Shown here: piece after piece, positions 22,750 to 35,597 of the stretch | Position numbering within the stretch: the stretch's first letter is position 1 | How the letters are laid out: every line of letters starts with the position of its first letter | Assembly: GCA_016181525.1 (NCBI GenBank) | Contig: JACOZD010000002.1 | Coordinates: 1-43,037, forward strand | Direction of reading: 5' to 3' | DNA length: 43,037 bases | Source: Candidatus Tayloriibacteriota bacterium | GTDB taxonomy: Bacteria; Patescibacteriota; Minisyncoccia; Phycocordibacterales; JACOZD01 | The notes under the pieces: generated by a model | What the model was told of the DNA's origin: nothing | Database searches by the model: none | What the model saw: only the letters and a program-made list of their open reading frames with translations | Made by a program: the position numbers and the translations under genes

Positions 22750-22766
22750 GAAGATATGTTCAATGT

Positions 22767-22865
22767 TCAACACTCGGTGTTGCACATCTCTCGGTGTTGC
22801 ACATCTCCCGACTGCCTACCGCTATGTGCAACACCGAGTGTTGCACACGGGCACGGTGTTGCAAA
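22767..22865. repeat. REP-like palindrome cluster
   Basis: Several copies and half-copies of the palindrome TGCAACACCGAGTGTTGCA lie between the groEL stop and its terminator. One is at 22767-22785 (inverted), a half at 22788-22801, a full copy at 22826-22847 and a half at 22853-22864. Further copies are at 23791-23813 and 30163-30183. All are intergenic, so this is a dispersed palindromic element of the REP type. Confidence 0.8.
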
Positions 22866-22875
22866 GTTGATAGTG

Positions 22876-22907
22876 AGGCCCGACTGAATGTCGGGCCTTT
22901 GCTTTTT
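22876..22907 (+). terminator. Rho-independent terminator after groEL
   Basis: AGGCCCGAC (22876-22884) pairs with GTCGGGCCT (22890-22898); followed by a T-rich tail ending in five T. Confidence 0.9.
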
Positions 22908-22966
22908 AAGTGCTTTGTGCTAGATTCTTTGCAGCGTTGAACATTAAAACTAGAAAGGCAATATGA

Positions 22967-23701
22967 ATGAAAACGAAGAATATGACAGCTATTCTCGAGC
23001 GGGAAGAACTGCCCGAGATTGACCCGGAAAAACTGGTGGCGCGCAATGTCCTCGACTACGCCCGCGACAAGTTGGACTATAGGCATCCAAACGCCATAGC
23101 CCAAAATGAGGAGACCACACTATGTACAGCCCTGCGCACGGCAGGCATCAGGCCTCTGAATGAGAAGTCGGTGGAAAGATACAAAACAGAGATGCTTCAC
23201 AAGCACTCTCCCAGCTGGGTGAGCCGGTCCATGGCCTATGAAGAGCCAGTCCCCCTTTATGTTTTCGGCTCGTTTGCGGCCGCGGGTGTGATGGCGGCGA
23301 TGGTGGTGCTGGTGGCCGGAGGGGTTTATCTGTGGGCAGATAAGGTAGATTCCGCTCGCATAGGACTGATAATTTTGAAGTCCACTATTATCTTCCTGGG
23401 TTGCGGCACAGTCGCGACTTTGATGGCGTTTTTGGCGGGGATAGGAAGAAGGGTGTGCGGATGGAAGACTCTCAGTCTTGGAGAATACTCTCGTTTGAAA
23501 AAGGCGGTCCCAGAGTTTGCGCTGCAGACGGCCGTGGAGGTTCATCAGAGGTCTGGAGGAAAGGTGTTTTTCTTTGTTGAAGAGTTTGAGGTGGAGAGAA
23601 GAGTTATGGATCCCTTTCTCATCGCCCAAGGGCCGGAAGGCGATACTTACTATCTCGAGGTTTGGGACGAGCCTGGCTTCAAGCGAAAACGCAAGGCCTG
23701 A
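22967..23701 (+). CDS. Hypothetical membrane protein, two helices
   Basis: 244 residues. Start at 22967, with GAAAGG at 22953-22958 as ribosome binding site and a TGCTAGATT extended -10 at 22918-22926. Residues 1-100 are soluble and charged; two membrane helices (about 97-121 and 130-156) follow; the last 85 residues are soluble (LGEYSRLKKAVPEF ... YYLEVWDEPGF). No family recognised. It is an independent unit between two REP-like sites, with its own terminator. Confidence 0.75.
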   Translation: MKTKNMTAILEREELPEIDPEKLVARNVLDYARDKLDYRHPNAIAQNEETTLCTALRTAGIRPLNEKSVERYKTEMLHKHSPSWVSRSMAYEEPVPLYVFGSFAAAGVMAAMVVLVAGGVYLWADKVDSARIGLIILKSTIIFLGCGTVATLMAFLAGIGRRVCGWKTLSLGEYSRLKKAVPEFALQTAVEVHQRSGGKVFFFVEEFEVERRVMDPFLIAQGPEGDTYYLEVWDEPGFKRKRKA

Positions 23702-23726
23702 CTTCTTCCGGCCGTGCTTAATCTCC

Positions 23727-23762
23727 AACCGCTTCGGTTCAATTTTCGAAGCGGTTTTTTCT
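23727..23762 (+). terminator. Rho-independent terminator
   Basis: AACCGCTTCG (23727-23736) pairs with CGAAGCGGTT (23747-23756), then a T-run. Confidence 0.9.
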
Positions 23763-23790
23763 TTTTTGTGGTTGCTCTGTTGGGGAAGAT

Positions 23791-23813
23791 ATGTGCAACA
23801 CCGAGTGTTGCAC
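23791..23813. repeat. REP-like palindrome, single copy
   Basis: TGTGCAACACCGAGTGTTGCACA, preceded by GGAAGATA as at the groEL copy. Same family as 22767-22865. Confidence 0.8.
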
Positions 23814-23910
23814 AAAGGCAGAATCGCACCATATCTCCATTCTCAAAAAAATTCGACATCGGATTTTGAAGTTGGTTTCCAGTGTCTCGTTTCTGGTTTC
23901 TTGGATATGC

Positions 23911-23916
23911 TAGAAT
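23911..23916 (+). promoter_or_regulatory. Extended -10 box, leaderless gene
   Basis: TGCTAGAAT, with the box ending 7 bases before the ATG at 23924. Confidence 0.55.
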
Positions 23917-23923
23917 TCTGGCG

Positions 23924-24499
23924 ATGAGAGGTGAAAAAGGGCTGAAATGGATGTACATTTTGCTTGCGGCGGGGCTTGTGGCAGTTGTCGGCCTATCGCT
24001 GATTCTCTCTAAAGAGGAGAAGGAAGAAGGCCGGATGGAAAAATTGGCCGGGCCAAGCGCGGCCGAGAAATTTAGCTGGTCGACCTTCGCTCACGGCACT
24101 TTGCCTTTCTCCATCATGCATCCGCCCGCGGTCTCTCCGCGCGAGCTTCCCGGCACGGGCGCTCTCCATGCTGTGGCTGCTTTTTTTGACGGGACCCAAG
24201 GCCAGCCGAGCGAGCCGATTATGGTCATCGCGGCCGAGGATATGGAGGAGACCTACGGCCGAATTTATGCTTCGGCGGAGGAATTTATAAACGAGTCGCC
24301 ACCCTCGCCGGAGGCGAGGGCTTCGAAAGTCAGAGTGGGCGGCGTCACCGGACTCTTGCTCTCTGGAGCGGAGAATGGAGGCACCTCATACTCCCACCTT
24401 CTCCTGGCCAAAAAGGGAAGGCTTTGGAACATTATATTTAAGTCCGACTCCGCTCGAGCCCAAAAGATGCTGGCTACCTTCAAGTTTTTGGATAAATGA
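23924..24499 (+). CDS. Hypothetical single-pass envelope protein
   Basis: 191 residues from the ATG at 23924; an in-frame GTG at 23882 lies before the -10 box and is unlikely. Membrane helix at about 9-27 (WMYILLAAGLVAVVGLSLIL). The outer domain of about 155 residues has FSWSTFAHGTLPFSIMHPP and ends SDSARAQKMLATFKFLDK, the pattern of PsbP/DUF1795-like beta-sandwich proteins found in many CPR genomes. That assignment is tentative. No catalytic motif seen. Confidence 0.7.
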   Translation: MRGEKGLKWMYILLAAGLVAVVGLSLILSKEEKEEGRMEKLAGPSAAEKFSWSTFAHGTLPFSIMHPPAVSPRELPGTGALHAVAAFFDGTQGQPSEPIMVIAAEDMEETYGRIYASAEEFINESPPSPEARASKVRVGGVTGLLLSGAENGGTSYSHLLLAKKGRLWNIIFKSDSARAQKMLATFKFLDK

Positions 24500-24565
24500 T
24501 GTAATATACAAACTTATTAGCTAGTAGTCTGCAGTTTGCTAGTTCGGTAATTTAAAAAAATTTCC

Positions 24566-25123
24566 ATGACTATTCTATATATTGTGCTGGGGATTGCAGT
24601 TTTGATTCTTCTTTGGATTATTTTTGCCTACAATCGCCTGGTCTCACTGGTGAACCAAACCAAGGAGGCCTGGGCGGACATCGAGGTTCAGCTCAAACGA
24701 CGCTACGACCTCATTCCTAACCTTGTAAGCACGGTCAAGGGCTACGCCGCCCATGAGAGCGGCGCCTTCGAGAACGTGACAAAGGCCAGGGCCAGCGCCA
24801 TGGGCGCCACCTCTCTCCGCGACAAAGGTATGGCCGAATCGTCGCTGGCCGGCGCCCTGCGCACCGTTTTTGCCGTGGCCGAGGCCTATCCCGATCTTAA
24901 AGCCAACCAAAACTTCCTTGCCCTGGAGCAGGAGCTCTCCGACACCGAGAATAAAATTCAGTCGGCCAGACGTTTTTACAACGGCAACGTCAGAGACCTG
25001 AACACCGCCATCGAGTCCTTCCCAAGCAACGTCGTTGCCTCGCTCTTCCATTTCGGCAGGATGGAGCTTTTCGACCTGCCGGATGAGCACGCGGCCCAAG
25101 AGCCGGTGGAAGTGAAGTTTTAG
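24566..25123 (+). CDS. lemA: LemA family protein
   Basis: 185 residues, the usual length. One N-terminal membrane helix (about 3-22), then a four-helix domain: YNRLVSLVNQTKEAWADIEVQLKRRYDLIPNLV is the classic LemA start, and DTENKIQSARRFYNGNVRDLNT and SFPSNVVASLFHF follow. Function is unclear. The gene lies just upstream of htpX, a pairing seen in many bacteria and in line with a role in membrane protein quality control. Confidence 0.97.
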   Translation: MTILYIVLGIAVLILLWIIFAYNRLVSLVNQTKEAWADIEVQLKRRYDLIPNLVSTVKGYAAHESGAFENVTKARASAMGATSLRDKGMAESSLAGALRTVFAVAEAYPDLKANQNFLALEQELSDTENKIQSARRFYNGNVRDLNTAIESFPSNVVASLFHFGRMELFDLPDEHAAQEPVEVKF

Positions 25124-25208
25124 TACGTGACCCGAATCACCAATTCGCCCGAATAACACAATTTATTAAGTGTTACTCGCGACCATTCGCGGATTGAGGT
25201 CGAGTTAT

Positions 25209-26117
25209 ATGACTACTTTATACTCTCATCGCCGGAAAAATATCCAGAAAACCTGGCTGCTCGTAACCTCCTTTTTTCTCATCATCATCGCTCTCGGCTG
25301 GACCTTTAGCCAAATCTACAACAGCCCCGGCATTCTTTACTTTGCTGTTATCTTTAGCATTGTCATGAACATCTTGAGTTATTGGCACTCCGACAAGATT
25401 GCTCTGGCCCTCTCCGGCGCGCGCTCGATTCAAAAAGCGGACAACCCGGAGCTTTGGAATGTGGTTGAGAACCTCTCCATCGCCGCCGGCCTGCCCATGC
25501 CGAGGCTTTATGTCATCGAGGACGCCGCTCCCAACGCCTTCGCCACGGGTCGCGACAAGGAGCATGCCGCCGTGGCCGTTACCGCCGGTCTTTTAAGTAT
25601 TTTAGAGCGGTCGGAGCTCGAAGGAGTGATTGCCCACGAACTCTCGCACATTGACAACCGCGATATTCTCGTTTCCACAGTAGTTGTGGTGCTAGTGGGG
25701 TTTGTCACTCTTCTTTCGGACTTCTTTTTGCGCAGCCGATTCTTCGGCCGCCGCGACAATCATCGGGGCGGAGGCGGAGTGCTGCTTCTCATCGGCCTCG
25801 CTCTGGCCATCCTCTCGCCTTTGGTCGCCACCATTATCCAGTTGGCCATCTCCCGCAAACGGGAGTTTCTGGCTGACGCCTCGGGGGCTCTGCTTACCCG
25901 CTACCCCGAAGGGTTGGCCGGCGCTCTGCGCAAGATTGGCGGTTACGGTCAACCCCTGCGCCGAGCCAATCACGCCACCGCCCATCTCTTTATCATGAGC
26001 CCCTTTGGGCCCGAGGAGGAGAAGACGGGTTTTTTGACCAAACTCTTTATGACCCATCCGCCGGTGGCGGAGAGAATAAAAGCTTTACTAGGACGCCATG
26101 CGGATAACCTCCACTGA
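25209..26117 (+). CDS. htpX: HtpX-type membrane zinc metalloprotease
   Basis: 302 residues from the ATG at 25209, without the 13-codon upstream extension, which has no good start context. Two N-terminal helices (about 16-60) precede GLPMPRLYVIEDAAPNAFATG. The zinc motif is HELSH (143-147), with the third ligand in REFLADASGALL. Two more helices follow the motif, separated by an Arg/Gly loop. It cleaves damaged membrane proteins. Its end overlaps the start of the next gene by 20 bases. Confidence 0.95.
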   Translation: MTTLYSHRRKNIQKTWLLVTSFFLIIIALGWTFSQIYNSPGILYFAVIFSIVMNILSYWHSDKIALALSGARSIQKADNPELWNVVENLSIAAGLPMPRLYVIEDAAPNAFATGRDKEHAAVAVTAGLLSILERSELEGVIAHELSHIDNRDILVSTVVVVLVGFVTLLSDFFLRSRFFGRRDNHRGGGGVLLLIGLALAILSPLVATIIQLAISRKREFLADASGALLTRYPEGLAGALRKIGGYGQPLRRANHATAHLFIMSPFGPEEEKTGFLTKLFMTHPPVAERIKALLGRHADNLH

Positions 26118-26664
26118 CCGTCTCATCTCCTGGCTGATTTTACCGGTAATTCCGAGCTGGGTGACGCCTAATCAAGTTACTCTCCTCCGCTTTTTTCTTA
26201 TTCCTTTCGTGGTTTACCTCCTCATGATGGAGGAGTTTCGTCGGGGAGCCATTCTGTTTGGTCTGGCCGCTCTAACCGACGCCCTCGACGGCGCCATGGC
26301 CCGCTACCGCAACCAGATTACCGAGTGGGGGAAAATCTATGACCCCCTGGCCGATAAACTTTTGGTGGGCACGGCCGTGGGTGTTTTGGTGACCAAGTAC
26401 GTGAGTGAGTACCTGGCCGCGGCCATTATCTTCGTCGAGGTTCTCCTTATCGTCAATGCCTTCTACAAAAACCAAGCGGAAGGAAAGGTGATTCAGGCCG
26501 TCTGGGCCGGCAAACTCAAGATGATTCTCCAGTCGTCCGCCATCTTGCTCCTTCTCGTTTCCCTCATTTTCTTTATTCCTTCGCTCATCGCCGCCGTCAC
26601 CGGCCTCCTTTATCTTTCTCTCCTCTTTGCTTTGATTAGTCTCCTTGTCTATCGTTCTATTTGA
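26098..26664 (+). CDS. pgsA: CDP-alcohol phosphatidyltransferase (PgsA-like)
   Basis: 188 residues with about five membrane helices. The catalytic motif DxxDGxxAR-x8-GxxxDxxxD is complete: DALDGAMARY, then WGKIYDPLADK (about residues 61-87). Length and motif fit phosphatidylglycerophosphate synthase, making acidic phospholipid precursors from CDP-diacylglycerol, but related enzymes with other alcohol acceptors cannot be excluded. It starts inside the htpX gene (20-base overlap), so the two are translated together. Confidence 0.9.
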   Translation: MRITSTDRLISWLILPVIPSWVTPNQVTLLRFFLIPFVVYLLMMEEFRRGAILFGLAALTDALDGAMARYRNQITEWGKIYDPLADKLLVGTAVGVLVTKYVSEYLAAAIIFVEVLLIVNAFYKNQAEGKVIQAVWAGKLKMILQSSAILLLLVSLIFFIPSLIAAVTGLLYLSLLFALISLLVYRSI

Positions 26665-26689
26665 AAGAATGGGCTTGAGTGTTTAGTAT
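26661..26689 (+). promoter_or_regulatory. Promoter of tRNA-Ser
   Basis: TTGAAA (26661-26666), 17 bases, TAGTAT (26684-26689). The -35 overlaps the end of the pgsA gene. Transcription should begin near 26696, 15 bases before the tRNA. Confidence 0.7.
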
Positions 26690-26710
26690 GAAGGAGAGTA
26701 TGAGGTGGAA

Positions 26711-26800
26711 GGAGGGTTCGCATAGTGGTCTAGTGCGCGCGCTTGGAAAGCGCGTAAGGGATAATTCCCTTCGAGAGTTCGAATCTCTCACCCTCCGCCA
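26711..26800 (+). tRNA. tRNA-Ser (anticodon GGA)
   Basis: Acceptor GGAGGGT pairs with ACCCTCC; the anticodon loop CTTGGAAAG gives GGA. A long variable arm (AAGGGATAATTCCCTT) marks a class II serine tRNA. The CCA end is encoded. The repeat island starts directly at its 3' end. Confidence 0.93.
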
Positions 26801-26865
26801 GTTGGGAAAATGCAAATTTGCAGAGGTCAGCTCGCGGCGCGAAACGCGCCGCTCGCACAGGATTT
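26795..26865 (+). repeat. Repeat starting at the tRNA 3' end
   Basis: CCGCCAGTTGGGAAA begins inside the tRNA 3' end (CCGCCA) and continues with ATGCAAATTTGCAGAGG, then a GC hairpin (about 26831-26856), then CAGGATTT. A direct copy of the first block is at 27619-27633 and a long inverted copy, with a different hairpin, is at 29113-29200. See findings. Confidence 0.75.
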
Positions 26866-26908
26866 GAAAGGGATTTTTTGGCGAAAAGGAAAAGGATTTA
26901 TCAATGAA

Positions 26909-26932
26909 GGGCAAAAGAAATTTTTTCATAAG
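26909..26932 (+). repeat. Short dispersed repeat (GGGCAAAAGAA type)
   Basis: GGGCAAAAGAAATTTTTTC and ATAAG; other copies at 29501-29524 and 30962-30984. Confidence 0.7.
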
Positions 26933-26940
26933 ATTTTTCT

Positions 26941-26976
26941 TCAATGAGCGGCAAGTTGCCGCTCATTGACTTTTAT
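26941..26976 (+). terminator. Terminator-like hairpin
   Basis: TCAATGAGCGGC (26941-26952) and GCCGCTCATTGA (26958-26969), a 12-bp perfect stem followed by CTTTTATT. Its end is used as the -35 of the next promoter. Confidence 0.75.
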
Positions 26977-26994
26977 TGTATAATATGCTATCCT
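26966..26994 (+). promoter_or_regulatory. Promoter with extended -10
   Basis: TTGACT (26966-26971), 17 bases, TATCCT (26989-26994) with TGC in front. The architecture is as at 706 and 2284. A TATAAT at 26979 is too close to this -35. Confidence 0.6.
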
Positions 26995-27055
26995 TGAGTG
27001 AAATCTGGGTATGTTGCCTGGATGGAATCAAACAGTTCTTTGAAAGGAGAAAAAG

Positions 27056-27361
27056 ATGGAAAACACATCTGTGCATGAGAACAGCGGTGCTCGAGCACGA
27101 CTGAAGCCGGGGGCATTACTGATTTGGCGGGTAGCCCTACTGAGCTTGCTTGGGGTTGTGGTTGCTGCAATCTTCAAAATCAACATGCTCGTAGCACTGA
27201 CCATGACCGCCTTGGGTGTTGCCCTCGGAGTAGCGGGCTGTGGTTTTCTCTTTCAAAACAGGAAGGGGTTTACTGCTCGCGACAACCTCATGGCCAATCT
27301 CGTCGGTGGAGGATGTCTTCTGTCAGCCACTGCGATTCTGGTCTGGACATGGCTACTCTGA
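27056..27361 (+). CDS. Hypothetical 101-residue membrane protein
   Basis: Start set by GAAAGGAGA in the leader CAGTTCTTTGAAAGGAGA, which is nearly shared with the gene at 30300. Three hydrophobic helices (about 21-42, 44-66, 80-101), Gly/Ala/Val-rich, after a hydrophilic N terminus. No family recognised. The DNA is more even in GC than the neighbouring repeats. It has its own promoter and terminator, like the other accessory genes of the island. Confidence 0.7.
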   Translation: MENTSVHENSGARARLKPGALLIWRVALLSLLGVVVAAIFKINMLVALTMTALGVALGVAGCGFLFQNRKGFTARDNLMANLVGGGCLLSATAILVWTWLL

Positions 27362-27377
27362 TCTCGAGCTCAATCCG

Positions 27378-27424
27378 TGCCCCATGGTTACGATACGTCG
27401 TTGCTGTGGGGCATTTTCTTTTTC
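27378..27424 (+). terminator. Rho-independent terminator
   Basis: TGCCCCA (27378-27384) pairs with TGGGGCA (27407-27413); a TTTTCTTTTTC tail follows. Confidence 0.7.
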
Positions 27425-27427
27425 AGC

Positions 27428-27740
27428 GAGAATTTGCCGCCAAAGCCAGTGAATTTTTCAATAATTTTAAATTGAAAAATTCACTGAATTGAGTTATACT
27501 TAACTCAATAAAAACTTGAAATCGTTAACGCTCTCAGCTTCGCCTTTCATTTTGCCCGCCCGCACATTCCGAGCCGCGCACAGCGCGGCGAGGACAGAAT
27601 TCCGTTCGAGCTATTTCAAGAATACACCGCCAGTTGGGAAATGAAGTCATTGGCTCGCCCGCTACGCGGGCTCGCCAGCCGTTTTTCGCGGAAATTTCAA
27701 GCCGTTTTGAATTCAGTAAGGCCAAAAGCGGGCTTTTCTT
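27428..27740. repeat. Repeat-rich non-coding stretch
   Basis: Contains GAATTTGCCGCCAAAG (27430-27445), a 16-bp stem CAGTGAATTTTTCAAT with its complement (27448-27487), a TGAGTTA/TAACTCA hairpin next to it, and AAAAACTTGAAATCGTT (about 27510). It also holds a block at 27575-27640 that is the inverse of 29185-29275, and GC hairpins around 27580 and 27655. No credible ORF. Confidence 0.65.
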
Positions 27741-27747
27741 TTCGGAA

Positions 27748-27792
27748 TTGAAAAAAGTAAATAATTTTGCTATCATAGTATTGTAATCAATA
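27748..27792 (+). promoter_or_regulatory. Promoter and operator of the XRE regulator
   Basis: TTGAAA (27748-27753), 17 bases, TATCAT (27771-27776) with TGC in front. TATTG TAAT CAATA (27779-27792) is an inverted repeat over the transcript start, a likely self-repression site. Confidence 0.65.
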
Positions 27793-27825
27793 TAACACAA
27801 ATAATGATATCAAAGTATTGAAACT

Positions 27826-28023
27826 ATGGCAACGATTGGCGAAAACATCAAAAAGGCGCGAAATAAGCTTGGCTTGACCCAAGACGACTTAGTGAGAAAA
27901 TCCGGTGTAAAACACACAACACTTACAAAAATTGAGAGCGATGTTGTAGTCAAGCCAAGTGTGCAAACAGTCGCAAAAATTGCTAAAGCGTTAGGCATTC
28001 CAATAGAAGAACTAATCAAATAA
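27826..28023 (+). CDS. XRE/Cro-family helix-turn-helix regulator
   Basis: 65 residues, a bare HTH domain. IGENIKKARNKLGLTQDDLVRKSGVKHTTLTKIES is the canonical XRE pattern and ends with KIAKALGIPIEELIK. Without any effector domain it is like controllers of toxin-antitoxin or restriction-modification units. An inverted repeat lies over its own promoter. The next ORF (a methyltransferase) begins 4 bases later, and AT-rich composition is shared by the two, so they moved together. Confidence 0.92.
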   Translation: MATIGENIKKARNKLGLTQDDLVRKSGVKHTTLTKIESDVVVKPSVQTVAKIAKALGIPIEELIK

Positions 28024-28027
28024 ATTT

Positions 28028-28787
28028 ATGGCAAAATGGCATTTCTGGGGCGAAAAAGAATTTTCTGATGTTTATGAAAATATCTACATCAGGAGTTATT
28101 GTTTTTGAAGTTGTAAAAGAAATCAACGCTTTGGGCGTAAAGAAAAAACAGATTATTGATATTGGATGTGGCGAGGGTCATGCTACAAAACAAATTCTTG
28201 ATAGAATTGATGGCGAATATATTTGTGACCTACTTGATCCCAACGAAAACGCGCTTTCTTTGGCCGAAGCTTTTCTGACTCCAGAAAATGTCGTTGGCGA
28301 AGTTTTTCCGAGAACACTTGCAACTTTCAAACCAAGTAAAAAATATGATGTGGTTTTCACCTCTCACACAAATTACTACTGGGCATTAAATGAAAAAGAC
28401 TATGATGCTCAACTTAAGAAACTACCAACTTTTTTGAATGAGAAAGGAAAGTTAATGATTCTCACTTTGCCGGAAGAGAGCGACCACTATCGAATAGCGG
28501 TAAGAAAAATTTACCCAGAATTTAACTACGCGCAATACATCATCAAATTTTATAAAAATTTAGGTTTGAAAGTTGATGTAAAAAAACTCAAAATGAGAAT
28601 GTACGTCGGAGATATTCTAAGCACAAAAAGTCTTTTCGATCTCAAAATTTTCTACCGATTTATTCATAACACAGATTCTTTTCCGAGCGACGAGGAAAGT
28701 AGAAACTTTCTAAAGTTGGTACAAGAGTATCAAGTGGACAACTATCTTGATTTCAAGGATTATTTGATTGTAGTTTCAAATCCGTAA
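28028..28787 (+). CDS. SAM-dependent methyltransferase, possible 5' frameshift
   Basis: The long frame runs from 28068 to 28787 (239 residues). IIDIGCGEGHATKQIL is the SAM-binding motif I of a class I methyltransferase; YDVVFTSHTNYYW is motif IV-like and LNEKGKLMILTLPEE the post-motif strand. The substrate is unknown. The 28068 start lacks a ribosome binding site. An ATG at 28028, 4 bases after the HTH stop, opens a different frame (MAKWHFWGEKEFSDVYENI) that reads like the natural N terminus but stops at 28108. Removing one base near 28091-28096 would join them. So either a frameshift mutation or a sequence error is possible, or translation restarts at 28068. AT-rich compared with core genes. 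Confidence 0.75.
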
Positions 28788-29530
28788 TTTTGCCGCCAAA
28801 GAAAAACTTGAAATTGTCCTTTCCGCTCCGGTTCAAGGCGAGGCGGGCGGAAGGGGGGTGTGGGGGGAATTCCGCCATTCCCTTGCAAAAAACAGAGGCC
28901 AGCCCCGCCGCCTTGCAAGTCATTGCAAAGCACCACAGAAAAATACTCTTTTCATTAGGAGAAAAAGAAATCCGGCGCGCGCAAATCAAAAAATGTGAAG
29001 AAAACTTTTTGGCTGGCTGGCGAGCGTTAGCGAGCGGCGGCGGGGCGGCTTCCATTAGTCGGGGTTCTGCTCAAAAAAAGTTCGGATTTCGTCCAAAAGG
29101 TACCGCAATTCAGGATTTCGCAAGTGAAGAGAGGATGCCTCGCGGCGCGTTCCGCGCCGCGAGGCATCCTCTGTAAATTTGCATTTTCCCAACTGGCGGT
29201 GTATTCTAAAAATAGCTCGAACCCTCTTTCGCTAAAGCTACAGACGGGCACAGCGGAATTCTGTCCTCGCCCAGCCCTTTCACAGAAAGAGCTGGGCGAG
29301 GAGTGGGCGGGCCTTCGCCTCGCTGAAGTGGCTTCGGCCACGCAAGCGGGCGGGCAAAACAAAAGGCGGAGCCGAGAAAATTCCAAACTGCCAAAGAACC
29401 TGAAAACAAATCGGCTCGCTTGCCAGTCCGTAGCGAAGCGAAGGCGGGAACCATATTTTGCCTGCCCCGTAGCTTCGCGTAGCGAATGGTACTGGGGGAA
29501 GGGCAAAAGAATTTTTTTCATAAATTTATA
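28788..29530. repeat. Long non-coding repeat cluster
   Basis: Copies of GCCGCCAAAGAAAAACTTG (28792), TCCTTTCCGCTCCGGTT (28818; also 30131), a 19-bp stem GAGGATGCCTCGCGGCGCG with complement (29132-29172), the inverted tRNA-end repeat (to 29200), CTCGCCCAGC/GCTGGGCGAG (29265-29302), CCAAACTGCCAAAGAACCTG (29383), AACCATATTTTG (29449) and GGGCAAAAGAATTTTTTTC (29501). ORFs here are made of palindromes and I do not believe them. Confidence 0.7.
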
Positions 29531-29572
29531 GGACTCTGAAGGACTATTTATTAAAAGAGTTGTAACCAATAA

Positions 29573-30019
29573 ATGAAATTATTCCTAAACGGATTAAAGA
29601 TATCAGTCGGAATGTCCATACTATGGGGCATGTTTTCATTTGTTGTTCTATACCTTCAATACAAAGATATAGTCCGATCAATCACTCCAGCTTTTGGTGC
29701 CGCGGTAAAGCTTTTTCCTATCTTTTTTATTGCTTCTCTCGGATTGAGCGTTTTCACAAATAATTCCAAAAAAAGATCTCAATCAGAAATTGTCGGTGTG
29801 AAGAAATCATTTTGGACTAGTTCGCGCATAGGTTTTGTTCTCGGGTTATTACTTGGAATCGGAGCAATTGCATCATCTGTATTTTATTGTTCCGAAGGAA
29901 GAGAGTGTGGACCAGGATGGATATTTCCAACTGCTATATTGCCAATAGTTCTTCCATTTCTAGGTGCAATTCTAGGTGCAATAATTGGTCACAGTATCGA
30001 TCGGAAAAATCAAAAGTAA
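29573..30019 (+). CDS. Hypothetical 148-residue membrane protein
   Basis: Four hydrophobic helices (about 9-29, 42-61, 84-106, 118-140) with a basic loop (NNSKKRSQSEIVGVKK) between the second and third. The last helix is Gly-rich (LGAILGAIIGHSI), and the C terminus is short and basic. No family recognised. AT-rich, and without a clear ribosome binding site. It stands alone between two repeat clusters. Confidence 0.65.
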   Translation: MKLFLNGLKISVGMSILWGMFSFVVLYLQYKDIVRSITPAFGAAVKLFPIFFIASLGLSVFTNNSKKRSQSEIVGVKKSFWTSSRIGFVLGLLLGIGAIASSVFYCSEGRECGPGWIFPTAILPIVLPFLGAILGAIIGHSIDRKNQK

Positions 30020-30062
30020 AAAGCGGCCTTTTTTGTGTCATTATTTCATAAAGACTCTGAAA

Positions 30063-30183
30063 ATTTTCCGCCAAAGAAAAACTTACTTGCCCGTCCGCAG
30101 GTCGCCTAAGGCGACCGAAGGAGGGAATCGTCCTTTCCGCTCCGGTTCCCGCCAGACACCGATGTGCAACACCGAGTGTTGCA
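30063..30183. repeat. Repeat pair: dispersed element plus REP-like palindrome
   Basis: CCGCCAAAGAAAAACTT (30069), GCAGGTCGCC/GGCGACC hairpin, TCCTTTCCGCTCCGGTT (30131) as at 28818, then TGTGCAACACCGAGTGTTGCA (30163-30183). Confidence 0.7.
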
Positions 30184-30208
30184 TCTGTGATTTTGTTATC
30201 GCCACCCC

Positions 30209-30265
30209 TTGACATATTAGCTTAATTATCATAGGATAAGTGGCAATCTGAACATGGTGTTCAGA
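30209..30265 (+). promoter_or_regulatory. Promoter and leader hairpin
   Basis: TTGACA (30209-30214), 17 bases, TAGGAT (30232-30237). The leader begins with TCTGAAC ATGGT GTTCAGA (30247-30265), a 7-bp hairpin near the 5' end. Confidence 0.7.
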
Positions 30266-30299
30266 AGCAACCAAATAGTTCCTTGAAAGGAGAAAAGCA

Positions 30300-30788
30300 A
30301 TGCATGAAATCCAATTGAAGTCGAAGTGGGGCGAGAAGCTGATCAAAGCGATCCCGGACAATGCGTCCTGGGAGTTCGTTTCGCATAGGGCCGGTTTGGT
30401 GAAGGCCCTCAATCTTATTGGGCCGGAGTCCTCGGACGTTCTACTCTACTTCGACGGGTTCTCGACAGTCAGAGTTCCGAGCAGAGACGTGAGCTTTCAC
30501 ATCGCAACAGAGAACAGCTCAGAGCTCGAAGAGTGTCCGATCGCAGAAATTCGTTACAGTCAACGAAAGAACGATATGGAAGTCCGTTGGCGAGAAATCA
30601 AGCTGTGGTTCAAGGATCGCGCTCAACTCGATCGATACGTACAGGCAGTAGTACTCCCCACCGGCGAAACCAAGCTGAACCCAAAACAGTTAGAGGAGCT
30701 CAAGAAACCGCAAGCGGAAGGTTCTTCTTCCGGCTCAGGGCTTCTACCCTTCGTTATCGGCCTTGGTCTTGGTATCGCGATCGATTAG
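30300..30788 (+). CDS. Hypothetical 162-residue protein with hydrophobic tail
   Basis: ATG at 30300 after CCTTGAAAGGAGAAAAG, a strong ribosome binding site. Residues 1-125 are soluble, beta-rich and charged (SSDVLLYFDGFSTVRVPSR, KNDMEVRWREIKLWFKD). Residues 138-148 are Gly/Ser-rich (EGSSSGSG), and the last 16 (LLPFVIGLGLGIAID) are hydrophobic, like a short tail anchor. No family recognised. Own promoter and terminator; GC content is normal for the window, unlike the methyltransferase. Confidence 0.75.
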   Translation: MHEIQLKSKWGEKLIKAIPDNASWEFVSHRAGLVKALNLIGPESSDVLLYFDGFSTVRVPSRDVSFHIATENSSELEECPIAEIRYSQRKNDMEVRWREIKLWFKDRAQLDRYVQAVVLPTGETKLNPKQLEELKKPQAEGSSSGSGLLPFVIGLGLGIAID

Positions 30789-30809
30789 TCGAGACAATGC
30801 CAGCATTTA

Positions 30810-30852
30810 GGAGCCACTTGCAGAATTAACTTCTGCGCGTGGCTCTTTTTTT
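30810..30852 (+). terminator. Rho-independent terminator
   Basis: GAGCCAC (30810-30816) pairs with GTGGCTC (30838-30844), with an inner GCAGAA/TTCTGC stem and a T-run. Confidence 0.9.
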
Positions 30853-30854
30853 GA

Positions 30855-30985
30855 AGCGAGAATTTGCCGCCAAAGAAAAAACTTGAAATTGTTACTTCCT
30901 TTCAGGAAGCCCAAACTGCCAAAGAACCTGAAAACAAATCGGCTCGAACCATATTTTGTAAGGGCAAAAGAATTTTTTCATAAAG
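30855..30985. repeat. Composite dispersed repeat, compact copy
   Basis: GAATTTGCCGCCAAAG (30860), then CCAAACTGCCAAAGAACCTG (30911) to GGCTCG (30946), then AACCATATTTTG (30947-30958), then GGGCAAAAGAATTTTTTC (30962). The blocks occur in the same order as at 29383-29524 but without the two hairpin inserts seen there. The remaining 31000-31080 holds only the promoter region of the next gene. Confidence 0.75.
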
Positions 30986-31706: not shown

Positions 31707-31755
31707 ATTAAGTTGTCCTTCTTTTTGACTTTGGGCTTAGGTGTATAATAGAGAG

Positions 31756-32271
31756 GTGGGGAAGGTTGCCTATCTTTTGATTGCGGCAGTCTCCATCTCT
31801 GCCGCTCTTATTCTCTTTTTTCTGAAAGTCGAGAAGGACGGGTGGTCGGATTTAAAACTTGAGGTCAACGATCCCGATGTAGGGTCGGGATCCCGACCGG
31901 AGCGTCGGGACTTAAATCTAGCAACTATCCTGATTGCCGACACGCCGGAGGAGAGGGCACGCGGCCTTGGCGGCCTGGAGAAACTTCGCGAGGGAGAAGC
32001 CATGCTCTTTGTTTTTGACGAACCGGCTTACCACTCCATCTGGATGAAGGACATGAATTTCTCAATAGACATCATTTGGCTCGATGAGAATTACCGAGTG
32101 GTTGATATAAAAGAGAGGGTGGCGCCGGAAACTTATCCAAAAATCTTCACCCCGCGGGATGAGGCCAGCTATGTTTTGGAAACTAAGGCCGGCTTAGTGC
32201 CGGAGGAGGGCATAAAAGCGGGAGACATTCTCGGGGGCGGTTTACACGGCAAAGAAGTTGTGGGGCACTAG
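31756..32271 (+). CDS. DUF192 family envelope protein
   Basis: 171 residues from GTG at 31756. The GTG at 31741 overlaps a TATAAT box (31744-31749), so the downstream GTG, 6 bases after it, fits a leaderless mRNA. Membrane helix or signal at about 4-22. DUF192 core: LATILIADTPEERARGLGGLEKL, MLFVFDEPAYHSIWMKDMNFSIDIIWLDENYRVV (read in parts) and YVLETKAG ... GIKAGD. Family function is unknown. A palindromic element (31882-31918) is inserted in frame between the anchor and the DUF192 domain and is translated as part of GSGSRPERRDLN. Confidence 0.9.
   Translation: MGKVAYLLIAAVSISAALILFFLKVEKDGWSDLKLEVNDPDVGSGSRPERRDLNLATILIADTPEERARGLGGLEKLREGEAMLFVFDEPAYHSIWMKDMNFSIDIIWLDENYRVVDIKERVAPETYPKIFTPRDEASYVLETKAGLVPEEGIKAGDILGGGLHGKEVVGH
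31882..31918. repeat. Palindromic element inside the DUF192 gene
   Basis: GGGTCGGGATCCCGACC followed by GGAGCGTCGGGACTTAAATC. The same arrangement (GAGTCGGGACTCCGACC, TCAAA, GGAGCGTCGGAGCTAAATC) lies in the RNase P RNA gene at 35319-35356. Confidence 0.8.
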
Positions 32272-32364
32272 CCTTTGTCTCCAGTTATCCACTCCTGCCT
32301 CGAAATCGGTGGAGTAGAATAAGTGAACTAAAAATTTTTTATAAAAAAATTAAATTCCAGATCC

Positions 32365-34725
32365 ATGGTCAAGACAAAAAATCTTGTAAAGTCTGCAGTC
32401 CCCGCTTCGGCTGTTAAGCGAGGTGAAAAGAAGAAAGAAAACACCTTCGTAAAGGTGGTGCGCAAGCGCGACGGCACCGTCGTGCCTTTCGATATCAACA
32501 AAATCAAGAACGCTCTCTACAAGGCCATGATTCAGACCGGCGAGGGGAGCGAAGAGGAGGCGGCGGTGGTAGCCAACAAGGTTTACGCCGACCTTATTCG
32601 TATCACCAAAAAGTACAAAAACTTCATCCCCGAGGTGGAGGGTATCCAAGACACGGTTGAGGCCGAGCTTATCCTCTCCGAGTACGTCAGGACGGCCAAG
32701 GCCTACATCCTCTACCGCGAGAAGCGGGCCAAACTGCGCGAGAAGGGTTTCCATGTGCCCGCCCACGTTAAAAAGCTGGCCGCGGAGAGCAAGCGCTACT
32801 TCCGCAACCCTTTGGGCGAGTTCGTTTACTACCGCACCTACTCGCGTTGGATTGACGAGGAGGGTCGGCGGGAAACCTGGATCGAGACGGTGGACCGTTT
32901 TATGGCTTTTATGAGAGAGAATCTTGGCGGCAAGCTCAAAGAAAGCGAGTACAAAGAGCTCCGGGAAACCGTTCTCTCCCACGAGGCCATGCCCTCGATG
33001 CGGTTGCTGCAGTTTGCCGGCAGGGCCGCCCGGGCTTCGAATGTCTGCGCCTACAACTGCTCCTTTGTCGCCCCGGAGTCCTTTCAAGACCTGGCCGAGA
33101 TTATGTATATCTCCATGTGCGGCACCGGCGCCGGTTGGGAGGTCTCGGCCATAAACGTGGAAAAGTTCCCGCAGATTCTGCCCCAGACCGGCGAGAAACT
33201 CGCAACTCACGTTATTCCCGACAGCAAGGAGGGCTGGGCCGACTCATTGGTGGTTGGGATGAAGGCCTGGGCGGTCGGCAAAGACATTGATTTTGATTTC
33301 TCTCTGCTTCGTCCGGCCGGGGCTAGGCTTAAGACCATGGGCGGCAAGAGCTCCGGGCCGGAGCCTCTGCGCCGGCTCCTCGCCTTTGCCCGCGAGCGGA
33401 TGCTCGCCCGTCAAGGCCGGCGCCTGCGGCCCATCGACATTCACGACATCATCTGCATGATAGGGGACTGCGTGGTGGCCGGAGGGGTGCGCCGGAGCGC
33501 CATGATCTCCCTCTCCGACCTCGACGACGGCGAAATTCGGGATGCCAAGAAGGGCGCTTTTTACCTCACCGACCCGCACCGCTCCTTGGCCAACAACTCC
33601 GCCGTTTACCTGCGCAAGCCCACCAACGAGGAGTTTTTGGAGGAGTGGATGGCTCTCATCAAAAGCCGTTCGGGGGAGCGGGGAATATTTAATCGCGGCT
33701 CGCTCGCCAAGCAGCTGCCGGGGAGACGCCTCGAAGTTTTGAAGAAACACAAGGGCTACCTCGACCCTTCGGGGGAGAGTGTCATCGGCCACCTCGGCAC
33801 CAATCCTTGCGGAGAGATAATTCTTCAAAGCAAGCAGTTCTGCAACCTCTCCGAGGTGGTGGCCAGGCGGGAGGACGATGAGAGGTCGCTTCTGCGCAAA
33901 GTTAGGGTTGCCACCATCCTCGGCACCTATCAATCGACCTTGACCGACTTTCCCTACCTCTCCAAGGAGTGGAAAGAGCGCTGTGAGGAGGAGCGCCTCC
34001 TCGGTGTCTCCATTACCGGCCAGTGGGACTCGCCGACAGTTCGCCGTCCCGAGGTTCTCTCCAAGCTCAAAGGAGAGGCCATCAAGGTCAATCGGGAGTA
34101 CGCCAAGCGCTTTGGCGTGAGTCTCTCCACCTGCATCACCTGCGTTAAGCCCTCGGGCACTCTCTCCCAGATGGTTGACTGTTCCTCGGGCATGCACCCG
34201 CGCCACGCGCCCTACTACATCCGCCGCATTCGCATCGCCGCCACTGACGCCCTCTTTAAGATGCTCAAGGACCAGGGCGTGCCTTACTACCCGGAGACAG
34301 GGCAGACCAAGGAGAACGCCACCACCTTCGTCTTGGAGTTCCCTGTCCGCTCGCCCGACAACTCTATCTTCAAGGACGATATTACCGCCATCGAGCAGTT
34401 GGAGTACTGGAAAACGGTCAAGTTGAGCTACACCGAGCATAATCCTTCGGTGACGGTCTCGGTCGGCGACGGCGAATGGGTTGAGGTGGCCAACTGGCTT
34501 TACAAAAACTGGGATATTTTGGGGGGACTGTCTTTCCTCCCCAGAGAGAAGCACGTTTACCAGTTGGCGCCTTATGAGGACATTGATGAGAAAAAGTATC
34601 ACGAGCTGGCCAGCCGGCTTAAAAATATCGACTACTCCAAAATCATTACCTACGAAAAGAGCGACGAGACCGAAGTTAAAAAAGAGCTGGCCTGCGTGGC
34701 CGGGGTGTGCGAAGTGGTTCAGTAG
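32365..34725 (+). CDS. nrdJ: Class II (B12-dependent) ribonucleotide reductase, RTPR type
   Basis: 786 residues. An ATP-cone domain (about 28-115) precedes the catalytic barrel. NPCGE (480-484) and C493 reproduce the C408/E410/C419 spacing of the Lactobacillus leichmannii enzyme. SNVCAYNC supplies the partner cysteine. The C-terminal pair C777 and C782 (CVAGVC) matches its C731/C736 thioredoxin-linked pair. FVYYRTYSRW is also typical. It reduces ribonucleotides to deoxyribonucleotides with adenosylcobalamin, without oxygen. It contains no intein. As a small CPR genome is unlikely to make B12, the cofactor must be imported. The start at 32365 has no clear ribosome binding site. Confidence 0.96.
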   Translation: MVKTKNLVKSAVPASAVKRGEKKKENTFVKVVRKRDGTVVPFDINKIKNALYKAMIQTGEGSEEEAAVVANKVYADLIRITKKYKNFIPEVEGIQDTVEAELILSEYVRTAKAYILYREKRAKLREKGFHVPAHVKKLAAESKRYFRNPLGEFVYYRTYSRWIDEEGRRETWIETVDRFMAFMRENLGGKLKESEYKELRETVLSHEAMPSMRLLQFAGRAARASNVCAYNCSFVAPESFQDLAEIMYISMCGTGAGWEVSAINVEKFPQILPQTGEKLATHVIPDSKEGWADSLVVGMKAWAVGKDIDFDFSLLRPAGARLKTMGGKSSGPEPLRRLLAFARERMLARQGRRLRPIDIHDIICMIGDCVVAGGVRRSAMISLSDLDDGEIRDAKKGAFYLTDPHRSLANNSAVYLRKPTNEEFLEEWMALIKSRSGERGIFNRGSLAKQLPGRRLEVLKKHKGYLDPSGESVIGHLGTNPCGEIILQSKQFCNLSEVVARREDDERSLLRKVRVATILGTYQSTLTDFPYLSKEWKERCEEERLLGVSITGQWDSPTVRRPEVLSKLKGEAIKVNREYAKRFGVSLSTCITCVKPSGTLSQMVDCSSGMHPRHAPYYIRRIRIAATDALFKMLKDQGVPYYPETGQTKENATTFVLEFPVRSPDNSIFKDDITAIEQLEYWKTVKLSYTEHNPSVTVSVGDGEWVEVANWLYKNWDILGGLSFLPREKHVYQLAPYEDIDEKKYHELASRLKNIDYSKIITYEKSDETEVKKELACVAGVCEVVQ

Positions 34726-34793
34726 GGTGCAGATTCTCTCGTTTTGATTTGCGGCTTGGCGGCAAGTGTCGAGCGCTGGCGGGGGCGCGCACA

Positions 34794-34827
34794 CGAAAAC
34801 CCCCCGAATTGCTTCGGAAGGTTTTCG
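34794..34827 (+). other. Two-tier hairpin in the gap before rnpB
   Basis: CGAAAACC and GGTTTTCG enclose CCGAA TTGC TTCGG. It lies 70 bases after the RNR stop, without a T-run; it may end or protect the RNR mRNA. The rest of 34726-34944 holds no credible gene. Confidence 0.5.
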
Positions 34828-34944
34828 CGGCTGCCTACACAGAAATTGCTTTCCATGCAAGATGTACAGCCTTGCCGGTAATTCTAGACCGGTTCGGCGG
34901 TTTGTAAATGGGGTTCTTGTGGATAATTTTTTGGGCTTAAAAAT

Positions 34945-34972
34945 TTGTCTTGAGTCAATGGTATGCTATAAT
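34945..34972 (+). promoter_or_regulatory. Promoter of rnpB
   Basis: TTGTCT (34945-34950), 16 bases, TATAAT (34967-34972) with TGC in front. Transcription is expected at about 34980, matching the start of helix P1. Confidence 0.8.
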
Positions 34973-34980
34973 AGCAGAAT

Positions 34981-35553
34981 CCTGCGCTGGACAGTTGCCC
35001 AGCACTTTTGTGCCACTGAAGAGAGCAAAGCGACTAAAGTTTAGTTAGACACTTGAGTGGAGACATTTAGAGTCGGTGGAACAAAAGTGCTGGGAGGAAA
35101 GTCCGAACACCATCCAGCTCCACTTTTACTGAAGAACTCCGTATCAATCGTGAATCACTCCGGCCATGCGAACATTATCTCCGAGATTCAGCTTGCAGCG
35201 TTGTTTAGTGAAAGTGGGGCTGGAGAGCATGGTAGCGGGTAACGCCCGCCCGGAGCAATCCGAGAGGTGCGAACAGAAACGACCCGGTTAAGTCCGGCTG
35301 AAACGGCCCCGACGCGGAGTCGGGACTCCGACCTCAAAGGAGCGTCGGAGCTAAATCCTTACCTTGGTGCAAGGCCGTACTCTGGGGGCTGGACACTAGG
35401 TGCTTTGGTCTGGAAGACTTCCAGATTCAAGTCTCTAGTCTCCAGCTCTCCAGTTTGTGCCGCTTGACCCTGACGGCAACGTCAGGGCTAGAGAAATAAC
35501 TATCATCCCACTGAAAGGCAGTGGCGAGACAGAATTCGGCTTACAGGCGCAGG
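34981..35553 (+). ncRNA. rnpB: RNase P RNA, expanded
   Basis: Conserved core pieces are in order. P1 is CCTGCGC (34981-34987) with GCGCAGG (35547-35553). GGGAGGAAAGTCCG (from 35091) is the first conserved region. GGTAGCGGGTAACGCCCGCC and GAACAGAAA follow, and GACAGAATTCGGCTTACAG is the 3' conserved region. The RNA catalyses 5' maturation of tRNAs. At about 573 bases it is longer than the usual 350-400. Three expansions are visible: a P3-like arm with CCAGCACTTTTGT and its complement (about 35000-35090), an arm closed by CCAGCTCCACTTT/AAAGTGGGGCTGG (35114-35226), and a palindromic insert at 35319-35356 shared with the DUF192 gene. Confidence 0.93.
35319..35356. repeat. Palindromic element inside rnpB
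   Basis: AGTCGGGACTCCGACC, TCAAA, GGAGCGTCGGAGC then TAAATC; matches 31882-31918 within the DUF192 coding sequence. Confidence 0.8.
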
Positions 35554-35559
35554 ACCTGT

Positions 35560-35597
35560 ATCAAAACACCCCGCTTAAAAAGCGGGGTGTTTTGATA
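35560..35597 (+). terminator. Rho-independent terminator of rnpB
   Basis: ATCAAAACACCCCGCTT and its complement with loop AAAA, 17-bp stem. TTTTGATAG at the end gives a T-run. Confidence 0.93.

Follow-up and report, generated by a model that had tools for sequence, protein, structure and literature searches.

How does one short palindrome come to lie both within a protein-coding gene and within the gene for RNase P RNA of the same bacterium? The question arises from a stretch of 43,037 nucleotides from a Candidatus Tayloriibacteriota bacterium, hereafter the window, in which an earlier note had reported the same palindromic element in a DUF192 protein gene and in rnpB. Both copies are present (Table 1), each made up of two adjacent 7-bp hairpins, [YYCCGAC-loop-GTCGGRR] x2, with variable loops; the core CCGAC/GTCGG is conserved and the length across the family is mostly 38-60 bp. 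The boundaries originally drawn, 31882-31918 and 35319-35356, mark real sites but are too narrow, since the upstream arm was missed and only three of the four arms were seen. To search for the element we used a covariance model, R1, built from 19 copies that include the DUF192 copy and exclude the rnpB copy. With cmsearch, R1 found the rnpB copy independently (43.6/42.8 bits, E about 1e-8 (9e-9)), and the next-best match within the window reached only 10 bits. Because the 54.3 bits of the DUF192 copy arise by construction, this copy being part of the model, independent evidence for it comes from its 26-mer, which recurs exactly in three other GTDB genomes in a 257-billion-base collection (one Kuenenbacterium and two Kaiserbacteria, all Patescibacteria). 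On these two lines of evidence, the presence of the same element in both genes is beyond chance. The window's own genome (492 kb, 82% complete) yielded these two copies and no more, and their spacing of 3.4 kb has a probability of ~1.4% under random placement.

Table 1. Positions in the window of the two element copies and of the genes that contain them.
Feature	Position	Strand	Details
DUF192 protein gene	31741..32271	+	PF02643, 176 aa, GTG start
Element copy A	31872..31910	+	39 nt, TCCCGATGTAGGGTCGGGATCCCGACCGGAGCGTCGGGA, in frame within the DUF192 gene
Copy A, hairpin 1	31872-31890		
Copy A, hairpin 2	31891-31910		
rnpB, class A RNase P RNA	34990..35570 (ends approximate)	+	RF00010; cmscan core 35188-35557
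Element copy B	35307..35350	+	44 nt, CCCCGACGCGGAGTCGGGACTCCGACCTCAAAGGAGCGTCGGAG, within rnpB
Copy B, hairpin 1	35307-35325		
Copy B, hairpin 2	35326-35350		

Covariation favours a structure of two separate hairpins. Within the alignment of 19 copies, the outer two base pairs of each hairpin co-vary, with 99.2% of cells paired, and the two-hairpin structure has a covariation score of 0.283 compared with 0.132 +/- 0.016 for shuffled alignments, a value reached in 0 of 500 shuffles. Across 58 distinct copies, which were chosen via the inner motif and not via the outer pairs under test, the outer pairs are standard in 224 of 232 cases, with a maximum of 183 in 2000 shuffles. Since outer pairs often differ between the hairpins of a single copy, each hairpin must be constrained separately. 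A single long nested hairpin was also considered and was rejected, as its covariation was at the level of the shuffles. The predicted fold of copy B likewise consists of two hairpins.

The family is widespread in Patescibacteria and dispersed, and one relative holds near-identical copies by the dozen. The search for further copies that the earlier note had proposed found many, R1 matching 38 of the 118 genomes of the window's order; in this count both strands were included, at most 56 candidates were scored per genome and the weakest matches (E 0.01-0.1) are possibly due to chance. Several genomes of the order have 15-39 matches (both strands counted), and 143 family copies were collected in all. 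In genome G023, 45 copies were read within 136 kb, 28 of them identical save for orientation; these copies are largely intergenic and their flanks are genome-specific. Its congener G473 has few R1 matches and no copy at the loci matching those of G023, where divergence of the intergenic DNA prevents an empty site from being defined to the base. The distribution is patchy, most sampled genomes of the order being without the element. Narrow patterns requiring GGAGCGTCGG had suggested that it was absent from the order, a result overturned by the covariance model. Of 379 genomes in the phylum of the window, 6 contain the exact hairpin TCCCGACCGRAGCGTCGGGA, one of them being the genome of the window itself, and 0 contain its reversed control pattern. 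A pattern for the element centre matches in 42 of the 379, some of these by chance, as a control pattern also matches in some genomes; among the centre-only matches no gene was seen between the two hairpins. With the queries used, no copy was detected in viral contigs (two scans), plasmids or E. coli. We consider it very likely that the repeat is a mobile element; no filled and empty pair of close strains is available, so recent movement is not directly shown. Its fuller description, as a non-autonomous mobile palindromic repeat of Patescibacteria with two independently folding hairpins, resembling both REP/BIME sequences and Rickettsia palindromic elements (RPEs), we regard as likely.

A considerable share of the family lies beside tRNA genes. 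Thirty-three of the 143 copies (23%) are located no more than 300 nt from an intact tRNA, whereas the tRNA density of the same loci (62 tRNAs in 446 kb) predicts ~9%, an expectation that is an upper bound, as the loci were picked around copies. In 22 of these 33, once the element is taken out, the joined flanks are identical to the neighbouring tRNA for 10-27 nt. The element follows tRNA position 7, 10-12, 15-16, 33 or 35, which implies that most of these copies occupy the D-arm or the anticodon loop of a partial tRNA duplicate. Judged by these matches, at least 22 copies sit inside partial duplicates of the adjacent tRNA. The partial copies may have been made by insertion, or it may be that only insertions into spare copies survive. 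At one locus (L101) a tRNA-Val gene is complete apart from an element in its D-arm, and both here and at a second locus (L110) direct duplications flank the element. These duplications, together with the 22 copies within part of the same tRNA, might indicate a site-specific recombinase or a tRNA-using integrative element, the repeat being its recombination site or scar. However, most copies away from tRNAs have no such context (recombinase genes were not systematically surveyed) and neither viral-contig scan contained a copy, so that we think this explanation improbable. Entry into rnpB, tRNA D-arms and anticodon loops, and the tRNA-Val gene that is whole but for its D-arm element, could also be accommodated by an RNA-level or intron-like element, which enters structured RNAs as RNA and is then copied to DNA, or is excised from the transcript. 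We find this very unlikely, since many copies are intergenic or lie in protein genes where they are readable in frame, 38-60 nt is too short for any self-splicing structure, and the tRNA hosts are mostly partial duplicates beside an intact gene, which makes removal unnecessary. A palindromic repeat that moves as DNA remains our preferred reading.

Insertion is best documented in rnpB. The window's gene scores 84.9 bits against RF00010 (E 5.1e-26), just below the gathering score of 100, and GAGGAAAGTCCGAACACC near 35095 and the end ACAGAATTCGGCTTA are directly visible. The site is empty in rnpB relatives from the same order, in which GAAACGG and CTAAATCC, or ACGG and CAAAATCC, are continuous; these insert-free relatives read GAAACGGCTAAATCC, and once the insert is deleted the window's gene regains their conserved sequence, no duplicated target being left over. 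The TAAATC 3' of the element, which the earlier note had counted as part of it, proves to be host sequence, since CTAAATCC is conserved in insert-free rnpB relatives, while the claim of a hairpin insertion in rnpB is borne out by the orthologues without the sequence and by the two-hairpin fold. In the cmscan alignment copy B coincides with two hairpins that are native to the Rfam class A model and that we take to be P13 and P14. As the inserted hairpins occupy native-hairpin positions, the window's RNase P RNA probably still folds despite the insert. This alignment, and the presence of other hairpins nearby in the rnpB of several relatives, leave room for the view that copy B is merely the native P13/P14 (on our assignment), element-like by chance or convergence. 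We judge that most unlikely: a model excluding this copy nevertheless recovers it with an E value of about 1e-8, two relatives (L139 and L142) have no hairpin at the window's insertion site and show continuous flanks, and the same family occurs at a different site in two other rnpB genes. This second site, GGTAGCGG^GTAACGCCCG, presumably in P8, is filled in the same-order genomes G020 and G469 and is unbroken, exactly or as a one-base variant, in 15 rnpB genes including that of the window; the shared P8 copies may go back to a single old insertion or to two. The rnpB gene of G469 has an additional weak family match of 20 bits. We read copy B, then, as an insertion of the mobile repeat.

In the DUF192 gene, copy A falls between an N-terminal hydrophobic segment and the DUF192 domain (Pfam E 2.9e-28, residues 63-163). 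Its deletion leaves GTC AAC GAC TTA, ...LKLEVNDLNLATILIADTPEE..., and keeps the reading frame, in agreement with the original description of an in-frame element. The DUF192 homologues L171 and L189 have a 14-aa gap across the insert; because the linker is variable, this empty site is weaker evidence than the one in rnpB. Orthologue alignment has thus located empty sites in rnpB and best DUF192 relatives that also lack the insert, and neither outcome that would have refuted the earlier note, conservation of the sequence in orthologues or a lack of further copies, came true. In-frame copies are present elsewhere in the genes for UvrB (48 nt), UvrA (54 nt) and SecA (51 nt), and the solved orthologues of all three proteins have gaps opposite the element-encoded residues. 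Comparison with solved relatives places another copy in a thioredoxin reductase-like gene, and further copies were recognised by reading in a carbamoyl-phosphate synthase-like gene and an isoleucyl-tRNA synthetase gene. The length is divisible by 3 in 14 of the 20 copies inside long open frames. That the repeat is a functional hairpin, such as a terminator or protein-binding site, spread by selection and not mobile, would agree with its conserved core and with the largely intergenic copies of G023 but is scarcely credible, given that a terminator is not expected inside the UvrA, UvrB and SecA frames, rnpB or tRNA arms, and that the distribution is so patchy within the order.

For the mobile repeat, we infer a mechanism in which the element moves as single-stranded DNA by its hairpins and is mobilised in trans by a Y1 transposase of the TnpA-REP/RAYT type, cleavage by which is likewise an inference. 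At the clearest sites, in rnpB and tRNA arms, a filled site differs from an empty one by the element alone, and no target-site duplication is seen. TnpA-REP makes use of GTAG and cuts at CT or CA (PMC8266576). GTAG adjoins 21 of 101 copies compared with 0.7 expected, in part as tRNA sequence (GTAG^CTCAG) or from a single genome (G015), and is absent at both window copies; the 3' flanks are frequently CT or CA, in partial agreement with TnpA-REP cleavage sites. The lack of target duplication, together with the GTAG and CT/CA flanks, renders the Y1 route plausible. It is unproven: of the 20 Y1 loci inspected, not one has copies of the element on both sides, and PF01797 gave no match in three genomes holding 5-7 copies. 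We see the prospects of this route as evenly poised. In the window's own genome, the RAYT gene on contig C19 has a different palindrome at its flanks. Hosts would tolerate the element since it contains hardly any stop codons and pairs with itself, and the insertions inferred to have survived are those in protein linkers, rnpB loops, intergenic DNA and spare partial tRNA copies. A more specific proposal, which we advance only tentatively and suspect is wrong, is a Patescibacteria transposition system whose enzyme, a diverged Y1 or an undescribed one, directs a double-hairpin cargo into tRNA arms and the loops of RNase P RNA, with a partial tRNA duplicate left behind as a safe landing site; if true, this duplicate would make insertion into essential RNAs survivable.

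The element resembles several known repeats and matches none of them fully. Like the RAYT-associated GTAG REP/BIME sequences, it is a short palindrome present in many copies, built, as those often are, of two neighbouring units, and it sometimes lies inside genes, including uvrA and uvrB, where REPs have been described in other bacteria (PMC3733652). GTAG, which in those repeats marks the 5' foot of the hairpin, stands beside a fifth of its copies, in part as tRNA sequence, and its CT/CA flanks are like TnpA-REP sites (PMC8266576). The criterion of a short many-copy hairpin repeat is met in the relatives, with only 2 copies in the window's genome. In contrast to GTAG REPs, the two hairpins are fused with no linker, GTAG is missing at most copies, both of those in the window included, and no RAYT gene is bracketed by copies; we found no mention of rnpB or tRNA-arm insertions in the REP survey PMC3733652. 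CGTC REPs, which include Neisseria dRS3 and Rickettsia RPE-4/RPE-6, have stems of 8-9 bp, form dimers, occur within genes and have no dedicated transposase known (PMC3733652). The present element is similar in its CGTC motif, stem length (7 bp), dimers, intragenic copies and lack of a known dedicated transposase, but the tag of CGTC REPs is unpaired at one end, a criterion that is not met here as CGTCGG overlaps the paired stem in 19 of 19 aligned copies. RPEs are repeats of 100-150 bp known from Rickettsia and Wolbachia that lie in frame in preexisting ORFs (PMC3767692). The parallel to them drawn in the earlier note is right as an analogy, both being in-frame palindromes in ORFs of small-genome, host-dependent bacteria (PMC3767692), and the criterion of in-frame insertion with readable hosts is met by DUF192 and, against solved structures, by UvrB, SecA and UvrA. 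Membership of the RPE family is not shown, as mostly 38-60 bp and a double-hairpin build differ from 100-150 bp and the length criterion is not met (sequences were not compared directly).

Since one defining feature each of RAYT-REPs, CGTC REPs and RPEs is unmet, we file the element under none of these; it has the appearance of an undescribed element akin to REP sequences and Rickettsia palindromic elements. To our knowledge, in-frame insertion of mobile palindromes into genes has been described chiefly in Rickettsia, Wolbachia and REP-rich Proteobacteria. The family described here, which belongs to Patescibacteria and is separate from those, has members at two sites in RNase P RNA, in tRNA arms and within the genes for UvrA, UvrB and SecA. 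No earlier description in Patescibacteria/CPR was found in the open-access literature, most subscription papers being outside this scope, and the earlier note, too, had known of none in CPR bacteria. The family offers an essential ribozyme and essential proteins with naturally occurring insertions, along with a large set of copies for comparative work towards identifying the mobilising enzyme. It may also explain odd tRNA pieces, and rnpB genes under the Rfam cut-off, in these genomes. A genome-wide repeat inside an RNase P RNA gene is reportedly not without precedent, Vioque being said to have found one, the STRR, within cyanobacterial rnpB in 1997; STRRs, unlike the present element, are tandem heptamers and not hairpins.

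Beyond the element, further long repeats and inverted repeats are clustered in the window upstream of the DUF192 gene, and a dispersed palindrome, TGTGCAACACCGAGTGTTGCACA, which is present in at least four copies, is a second palindromic repeat family of this stretch. On another contig of the same genome, C19, a RAYT-like Y1 transposase gene carries a repeated palindrome, TGCTATGAGGTGACACCTCATAGCA, at its flanks, apparently a repeat family belonging to this gene itself. Since the reversed control for the element-centre pattern matched 12-13 times in one of the searched genomes, G308, these matches point to another repeat family in that genome.

At three loci read from genomes (L101, L105 and L073), an outer tRNA is interrupted in its anticodon loop by an intact tRNA (Leu-gag, Ile-gat, Val-tac) that has 12-17 bp inverted repeats on both sides; acceptor-stem pairing of the outer tRNA is kept in L101 (Leu) and L105. 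Within this same family of genomes, tRNA-like sequences also carry, around the D-loop, an insertion of a second hairpin, CCCCAGCACC...GGTGCGGGG, which differs from the element. At a further locus, L292, a copy of the element lies between a 16S rRNA gene piece and the group II intron match that follows it.

Coordinates of the additional repeats and interrupted loci
Feature	Sequence	Position
Clustered long and inverted repeats	window	26795-30946
Inverted-repeat arms, 58 nt	window	26795 and 29142
Identical 36-mers	window	29383 and 30911
TGTGCAACACCGAGTGTTGCACA copies	window	22764-30191
RAYT-like gene with flanking TGCTATGAGGTGACACCTCATAGCA	L129 (contig C19)	1230-2000
Interrupted tRNA	L101	790-1120
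Interrupted tRNA	L105	1490-1800
Interrupted tRNA	L073	1430-1900
Second hairpin	L105	about 1560-1592
Second hairpin	L101	about 850-880
16S rRNA piece, element, group II intron match	L292	529-1802
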